A stretch of 64,000 nucleotides of DNA from a virus. The DNA is taken from positions 1 to 64,000 of IMG/VR virus record IMGVR_UViG_3300044732_003010; one strand, given 5' to 3'. A model generated the notes under the pieces. That model was not told the origin of the DNA. It searched no databases and saw nothing but the letters and a program-made list of their open reading frames with translations. Shown piece by piece: positions 44,835 through 47,402 of the stretch. Both the position numbers and the translations under genes were made by a program. How positions within the stretch are numbered: the stretch's first letter is position 1; each line of letters begins with the position of its first letter.

Positions 44835-44907
44835 TGTGGGGTCTAGGAGTCGAACCTAGTGTTTTAGGCTTATGAGGCCTATGTGGAAACCATTTCACTC
44901 ACCCCGC
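44835..44907 (-). tRNA. tRNA, anticodon CAT (Met or Ile)
   Basis: 73 bases. Acceptor GCGGGGT pairs with ACCCCAC (one C-A mismatch), anticodon stem TAGGC/GCCTA with loop CTCATAA (anticodon CAT), T-stem CTAGG/CCTAG with loop TTCGACT. The D-arm is short (GTG/CAC). No CCA encoded. Elongator Met or, with a modified C, Ile(AUA). Only complete tRNA seen. Confidence 0.85.
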
Positions 44908-46008: not shown

Positions 46009-46446
46009 ATGTTAGCATCCAATTCTCTTTCTGTCAAATCTAATTGCGTCCCCGTTATGTCTGGCAATTTCACTATGATTGCCAGAGGTCAAAAGCACCA
46101 GGTTTCTCTTAAAGTGTGGGGAGAAGGACAGATTACCACTCTCCGAGTTATTTGTCAGCAAACTGGTAAAGAATGGTTTTTCGATACCTTTAATGGCAAG
46201 TTAAGCCGTGGTTTCAGTCCTGACGGAAAACTCCCCAACTGCGAATTACCTGAGATTAAATTTCAACCCGTCAAAAAAGCTTTTGTTATTTCCCCTACGA
46301 TGGGATTCGTGGATTGTGGCGGACGCTACCATGAAATTCCTAGTAACGAACCTACAGACGATTTTATTGATGATGATACCGAGCCGTCGGATTTAAGTCG
46401 GTACAGCAAACCAATGACCGATCCGACGACATGGCAAGAGTTTTAA
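46009..46446 (+). CDS. hypothetical protein
   Basis: 145 aa from the ATG at 46009 (weak AGGT upstream); ATGs at 46057 and 46075 are alternatives. NFTMIARGQKHQVSLKVWGEGQITTLRVICQQTGKEWFFDTFNGKLSRGF is beta-rich; the C-terminus is acidic (DDFIDDDTEPSDLSRY). Family not recognised. Confidence 0.5.
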   Translation: MLASNSLSVKSNCVPVMSGNFTMIARGQKHQVSLKVWGEGQITTLRVICQQTGKEWFFDTFNGKLSRGFSPDGKLPNCELPEIKFQPVKKAFVISPTMGFVDCGGRYHEIPSNEPTDDFIDDDTEPSDLSRYSKPMTDPTTWQEF

Positions 46447-46500
46447 TTAGTTATCAGTTATCAGTTATCAGTAAACAGCAACCTATTAAGAGTAAAAACC

Positions 46501-46883
46501 ATGACTATTATCAACGCTACCCCCACAACATCACCATATTAAACAAAGCTGGCATCACCCAAGATGAAAAAAAACAGTTTCTGGGAAACAAAGAGGCGAT
46601 TGTGGTTCTCAAGGAAATCCCAGCATCCGGGATTCTCCCGCGGGTCAAAATGTCCAACGAACCCGCAGAACCCATTGACGGTATCCCAGTAGAAACCGTT
46701 ATCTACGGGGAGATCGAGGGACTCCCTAAGTATCAGGAGGAGGTGTACTATATTGTCTCAGGATTAGTGGCAGCGGCAGCCGCTAAGATAGGGCGCACAG
46801 ACTGCCTTGCCCCTGGTGCAATCGTCCGGGATGAGTCTAATCCCTCGAACGTTCTAGGGTGCTTGTTCTTACAAAAGCCCTAG
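46501..46883 (+). pseudogene. cyanobacterial hypothetical family, frameshift at a C-run
   Basis: The natural start is the ATG at 46501 (MTIINATP), but the frame is lost in a run of five C near 46521. One more C would join it to HNITILNKAG...LKEIPASGILPRVK...DGIPVETVIYGEIEGLPKYQEEVYYIVSGLVAAAAAKIG..CLAPGAIVRDE, a layout I know from many cyanobacterial proteins. The longer frame upstream (from 46431) is repeat-derived and unlikely as a start. Sequencing error, decay or programmed slippage are all possible. Confidence 0.55.
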
Positions 46884-46885
46884 CC

Positions 46886-46947
46886 GATCCGAAACGGGAA
46901 CCTTTCCCGTATGCCTAGCGGCTCAATTCTAGGCACTGATGAGGATA
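46886..46947 (+). ncRNA. hammerhead ribozyme-like RNA (type II arrangement)
   Basis: All core parts are present in order. GAAA at 46891-46894 opens stem III, ACGGGAA (46894-46900)/TTCCCGT (46904-46910) with a 3-base loop. GTA (46909-46911) is the NUH cleavage triplet. Stem I is TGCCTAG (46912-46918)/CTAGGCA (46929-46935). CTGATGA (46936-46942) is the conserved box. Stem II closes with ATCC (46887-46890)/GGAT (46943-46946). The A15.1-U16.1 pair is A46894-T46910. Cleavage is predicted after A46911. Stem II is short, and a competing GGATAG/CTATCC hairpin exists. Confidence 0.72.
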
Positions 46948-46966
46948 GAAGGAGTTACGGCTATCC
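46943..46966 (+). other. hairpin competing with ribozyme stem II
   Basis: AGGATAG (46942-46948) can pair with CTATCCT (46961-46967), taking bases from the ribozyme's stem II. A second hairpin, GGGAGG/CCTCCC, follows at ~46973-46991. These could switch the ribozyme on or off or form the end of the cleaved RNA. Confidence 0.45.
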
Positions 46967-47014
46967 TAAAATGGGAGGTGCAATTCCTCCCTCTACAAAT
47001 CGATATATTTGAAC

Positions 47015-47287
47015 ATGAACATGAACGAGGAATCCAGAAAAATACTAGGAACAATTGCAAGGCTAGAGAACGCATCGTATCTTTTGATTGCTATCTTAAT
47101 CGGAATGGTAGTGTTTGGAGTAGGTCAAACACTACACAAAGCTAATCACTACCTTGCATCACAAGGACACGAAAACCCAAAAGTACTATTGCTTCCATCT
47201 TGGAGGTGTGGAACATTTACCGAATTGAATTTCCATCAGAACGACGGAAATAGAGGATATTTGTGTGCAAAACAGATAAGGAGGTAG
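47015..47287 (+). CDS. single-span membrane protein
   Basis: 90 aa from the ATG at 47015 (47021 is an alternative). Residues ~16-38 (NASYLLIAILIGMVVFGVGQTL) form one membrane segment; the rest is Cys- and His-containing (WRCGTFTELNFHQNDGNRGYLC). Just downstream of the ribozyme-like RNA. Function unknown. Confidence 0.5.
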   Translation: MNMNEESRKILGTIARLENASYLLIAILIGMVVFGVGQTLHKANHYLASQGHENPKVLLLPSWRCGTFTELNFHQNDGNRGYLCAKQIRR

Positions 47288-47402
47288 GTTGTCCAATCAG
47301 TACTCAACGAAGTGAAACCTAATAAGATGATGCTGTAGCAAATGCAGATTGGCGCATAGAAGATTAAGGTTATCAGTAAACAAATTATTTAGGAGTAAAA
47401 CA

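Follow-up and report, generated by a model that had tools for sequence, protein, structure and literature searches.

Natural hammerhead ribozymes of type II were first described by Perreault et al. (2011), in a survey where bacteria carried them as frequently as types I and III, and often within prophages (PMC3088659). For prophage representatives, cleavage of a cloned polycistronic RNA was shown and processing of the message was proposed, while in the haloviruses HF1 and HF2 a ribozyme is located 13 nt upstream of a start codon, with a mapped mRNA 5' end no more than 3 nucleotides from the cut site (PMC3088659). In the same survey, four of 18 hammerheads conforming to the consensus were inactive in vitro, and no biological role of phage hammerheads was proven (PMC3088659). 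The type II hammerhead and its occurrence in phages are established knowledge since 2011, and these precedents make the cyanophage hammerhead presented here a further example, not a new kind of ribozyme. In the literature searched, we found no mention of hammerhead ribozymes together with Microcystis.

The DNA analysed (the window) is a stretch of 64,000 nucleotides from an 88-kb virus record of IMG/VR. Reading of its positions 46500-47400 finds, at 46887-46946, a complete type II hammerhead (stem II open) without any mismatch in the core, and the RNA between the two flanking genes would very probably cut itself. The locus is made of the following features:

46431..46883, forward strand: upstream gene, PHROG 21731 (unknown function), with its stop codon TAG at 46881-46883, 7 nt before GAAA
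46887..46890, forward strand: 3' strand of stem II, AUCC, pairing with 46943-46946 (AUCC/GGAU, 4 bp) in the RF02276 alignment
46891..46894, forward strand: core nucleotides G12 A13 A14 A15.1 (GAAA), invariant in all homologous loci
46894..46910, forward strand: stem III hairpin of 7 bp, ACGGGAA/UUCCCGU with loop CCU, A46894-A46900 pairing with U46904-U46910 in the MFE fold
46909..46911, forward strand: GUA triplet, with the cut predicted after A46911 by analogy with the hammerhead family
46912..46935, forward strand: stem I hairpin of 7 bp, UGCCUAG/CUAGGCA with the 10-nt loop CGGCUCAAUU, U46912-G46918 pairing with C46929-A46935 in the MFE fold
46936..46942, forward strand: core nucleotides C3-A9 (CUGAUGA), invariant in all homologous loci
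46943..46946, forward strand: 5' strand of stem II, GGAU, which together with the preceding GA makes a GAGG Shine-Dalgarno-like stretch in compact variants
46943..46966, forward strand: anti-stem-II hairpin GGAUAG/CUAUCC, long form only
46947..47014, forward strand: extra leader of about 65 bp, part of the long form and absent from the compact sub-lineage
47015..47287, forward strand: downstream gene, for a protein of 90 aa that by eye appears to have one membrane segment near its N-terminus
47288..47372, forward strand: conserved non-coding tail of about 85 bp at the right end of the cassette, with no Rfam match

The locus reads, in order, TAG (46881-46883), AUCC, GAAA, a hairpin, GUA, a second hairpin, CUGAUGA and GGAU. 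Aligned over positions 1-66 of RF02276, the Rfam type II model, this is the succession stem II 3' strand, GAAA, stem III hairpin, UH, stem I hairpin, CUGANGA and stem II 5' strand, with stems II, III and I of 4, 7 and 7 bp around the core. Stems I and III are present in the MFE fold, and all three stems form in transcripts ending at 46950 (ViennaRNA). An earlier note, made from the letters of the window, had given coordinates, stem lengths, a mismatch-free core and a predicted cut site that agree with the present reading. Many type II hammerheads are accelerated by a pseudoknot between loop I and the tail. The best candidate for such a pairing here, GGCUC/GAGUU (three Watson-Crick and two G-U pairs), is matched by 22% of shuffled tails, and a pairing search of loop I against the tail of compact variants gave no convincing pseudoknot.

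In the search with a type II covariance model that the earlier note had proposed as a check, RF02276 matches 46887-46952 over its full length with 30.0 bits, under its gathering score of 37. The corresponding E value is 5e-4 when 701 bases are compared with all 4227 families, and about 1.6e-5 for this single family over the whole 88-kb record; six related records score 27.7-30.9 bits. As a consequence of the score, the hammerhead goes unlisted when the window is scanned with Rfam at its default setting. This cut-off sets a limit for annotation; it does not describe the ribozyme itself. Seven other structured hammerheads with a stem II of 4-6 bp also fall under it (two in L270, and one each in L272, L273, L280, L282 and L284), whereas those with a stem II of 2-3 bp, tested alongside, pass. 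The low score here is explained by this behaviour of members whose stem II has 4-6 bp, and does not put the identification in doubt. This indicates that the default Rfam cut-off misses type II hammerheads of that sort, and the seven sequences without an Rfam call form a possible subgroup that is absent from annotation. When windows are shuffled, the core pattern alone, with stems disregarded, has an expectation of 0.08 per window, and the 18 stem pairs come in addition.

A strict type II pattern has at least 120 matches in viral contigs and 102 matching stretches in GTDB genomes, none of the latter with a cyanobacterium in its title. The earlier note had called type II the least common natural layout, an argument that is out of date in view of the published frequencies (PMC3088659) and of these counts. 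Pattern scans and a second scan provided 164 other distinct type II sequences with all three stems. Across this class (163-164 sequences) variable stem pairs covary strongly, as expected of real ribozymes; pair 2 of stem II, for example, is paired in 100% of cases, against 43% when shuffled. Among the 147 members with usable flanks, 119 have an ORF that stops shortly ahead of the ribozyme (GAAA comes a median of 5 nt later) and an ORF started by ATG behind it, a context found at 24% of random positions. The window element fits this stop-hammerhead-start position. In some bacterial sequences, probably prophages, type II hammerheads form tandems of two to four copies spread over a few kb (L169, L170, L172, L176 and L194), an arrangement of a kind already reported in 2011 (PMC3088659).

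The upstream gene is frameshifted in this record, as the earlier note had noticed, and the shift relative to homologues is near the start of the gene: from ATG 46501 it reads MTIINATP and then meets a stop, where homologues read on. Repeats of TTATCAGT in window positions 46431-46540 precede this gene, whose likely start is ATG 46501. Its product matches proteins of Ma-LMM01 and MaMV at 68-69%, and the region has matches of about 75% to MaMV-DC and others. Judged from sequence similarity, the ribozyme-bearing phages are relatives of the phages of Microcystis, a bloom-forming cyanobacterium. The downstream 90-aa protein has no Pfam or PHROG match and no match in annotated phages and plasmids, and no promoter-like site was found between the two genes. 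Elsewhere in the window, a tRNA gene (44835-44907, reverse strand; Rfam RF00005, 52 bits) has an anticodon that looks like CAU by eye.

The same locus occurs in several states among relatives. Where the upstream gene is not followed by the membrane-protein gene, as in L004, L013, L021, L022 and phage Ma-LMM01, the hammerhead is missing too, so that ribozyme and membrane gene travel as one cassette. The flanking sequences show the ribozyme, the membrane gene and the 85-bp tail to have arrived as a single block. The tail is conserved nearly as well as the membrane gene; we considered it as a further ribozyme or Rfam RNA and dropped the idea, as it folds no better than shuffles and has no counterpart in Rfam. 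No attC-like core sites of an integron-like cassette end were seen by eye. Excision of the membrane gene as a unit by a second hammerhead was likewise set aside, as searches of the 88-kb record for types I, II and III gave no acceptable match; a weak type I-like match there (80693-80731, 14.8 bits) was taken as noise. Just downstream of the cassette site, L021, L022 and L041-L045 have an inverted repeat ATTCTCCCA...TGGGAGAAT around a TTGACT -35-like box, which recurs in these several loci and looks like a promoter with an operator. The cassette itself exists in two forms. Compared with the window, a compact sub-lineage (L014, L016, L017 and L041-L046) has the ribozyme alone in the gap between stop and start codon, as in ...CUGAUGAGGAUAGC-AUGAACGAGG... 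or, alternatively, GGAU-AUGAAC. In the long form, to which the window belongs, the ribozyme is followed by about 65 further bases, with the hairpin that competes for GGAU.

Conservation across these forms is strong. In IMG/VR contigs fetched by searching with both flanking genes, the hammerhead is at the same place, with the core CUGANGA ... GAAA ... UH unchanged, in 22 of the 22 that contain the 5' end of the membrane-protein gene together with upstream sequence; the exceptions are L031, which starts after the site, and L047, whose membrane gene is truncated and which is without the ribozyme. The 19 distinct sequences give a nucleotide diversity of 0.011 for the ribozyme, while at four-fold sites it amounts to 0.091 in the membrane gene and to 0.294 in the upstream gene. 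The ribozyme is thus about nine times less diverse than the silent sites of the gene that follows it. Its few changes are all in loops or stem pairs: in stem III, C-to-U at 46907 still leaves a G-U pair, G46896A breaks one pair of that stem, and GGAC in place of GGAU (L019 and L041) makes stem II slightly weaker. Within the phage clade the element varies so little that compensatory changes are absent from all stem pairs, and the clade-level evidence is therefore conservation, not covariation. The comparison of homologues that the earlier note had suggested thus bears it out in the 22 contigs as far as conservation goes; covariation is seen at the level of the type II class as a whole and not below it.

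The absence of compensatory changes would be expected of a clade young enough for a chance resemblance to have been conserved merely through recent spread of the cassette. This explanation is already very unlikely. It has to face an E value of about 1e-5 for the RF02276 match, silent sites that vary some nine times more within the same cassette, and a position that agrees with the general one of type II hammerheads. The central claim of the earlier note, a type II hammerhead between two genes of a phage transcript, is upheld by the covariance-model score, the exact core, conservation and position together.

We consider it likely, with good confidence, that this type II hammerhead of a Microcystis phage cuts a polycistronic mRNA and separates the membrane-protein message from the upstream gene. 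The ribozyme would fold on the nascent mRNA as RNA polymerase passes, and cut it after A46911. The upstream message would be left with the stem III hairpin at its end and a 2',3'-cyclic phosphate, and the membrane-protein message with a 5'-OH and the stem I hairpin at its start. The likely benefit would be two separate messages, each with a hairpin-capped, protected end. In compact variants, cutting may also unpair the ribosome-binding stretch GAGGAU from stem II, beside the start codon; accessibilities computed with ViennaRNA were mixed, so that release of GAGGAU as a consistent effect in all variants was rejected, and we infer no more than that it may occur. Against cleavage we counted the G46896A and GGAC variants, which weaken their stems slightly while the clade offers no compensation, the ViennaRNA fold of the finished long-form transcript, which breaks stem II, the lack of a convincing pseudoknot between loop I and the tail, and the four of 18 consensus hammerheads that were inactive in vitro (PMC3088659). 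The fold might also have been kept as a structured leader, as a protector of the RNA end or for translation control of the membrane gene, cleavage being irrelevant in vivo. The compact variants lend themselves to this proposal, as the element abuts the start codon and the GAGG stretch could serve as a ribosome-binding site, but the long form keeps the same ribozyme nucleotides with its start codon 72 nt away, and the catalytic nucleotides without a pairing role (CUGAUGA, GAAA and A17) are as invariant as the stems. We hold it to be improbable.

Granted that the RNA cuts, the long form raises the question of regulation. The earlier note had suspected that a hairpin just downstream might compete for stem II and switch the ribozyme. 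The hairpin exists, and in ViennaRNA it wins: stem II has a probability of 0.69-0.92 in transcripts that end at 46946-46958, which falls to 0.13 at 46962 and to 0.00 at 46966, where the competitor reaches 0.99. Stem II could then form only while about 46947-46962 is transcribed, before the 46943-46966 hairpin captures GGAU, and polymerase speed, a pause or a ribosome would set the balance between cutting and uncut read-through. The good conservation of the insert in which this hairpin lies (pi 0.029) is in keeping with such a regulated ribozyme. However, the compact sub-lineage has kept the ribozyme without the hairpin, which means that a switch is no part of the conserved design; no covariation bears on the hairpin; and the nearest-neighbour model leaves out the core and tertiary contacts that stabilise a ribozyme. 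Regulation of this kind in the long form appears unlikely. A broader scheme, quite unlikely as a whole, would have cutting set by timing: the hairpin gained by one sub-lineage would give a transcription window of about 16 nt and a tunable ratio of cut to uncut RNA, while in the sister sub-lineage cutting would be coupled directly to release of the abutting gene's ribosome-binding site.

What is new here is the cyanophage setting, in viruses that infect an ecologically important host, together with a clear test of conservation and natural comparisons of loci with and without the ribozyme and of compact and long forms. The locus is a clean natural comparison, with no-cassette loci, a compact form, and a long form with its leader and competing hairpin. 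The element shares with the type II family RF02276 the permuted layout, the core, stems I and III as hairpins, an open stem II and a position between phage genes. It differs in a stem II of 4 bp, where 2-3 bp were commonest in the survey, in GUA instead of GUC, in having no clear loop I-tail pseudoknot, and in its 30 bits, below the gathering score. With HHphage of HF1/HF2 it shares a place upstream of a start codon in a viral genome, that of HHphage being 13 nt away and in an operon (PMC3088659); HHphage has changes in its core, whereas the element described here keeps the consensus core intact and belongs to a cyanophage. Like the tandem prophage hammerheads that flank blocks of genes (PMC3088659, Figure 3), it is a ribozyme placed between adjacent genes of one transcript; unlike them, it is present as one copy per phage, with no second type I, II or III hammerhead in the record.
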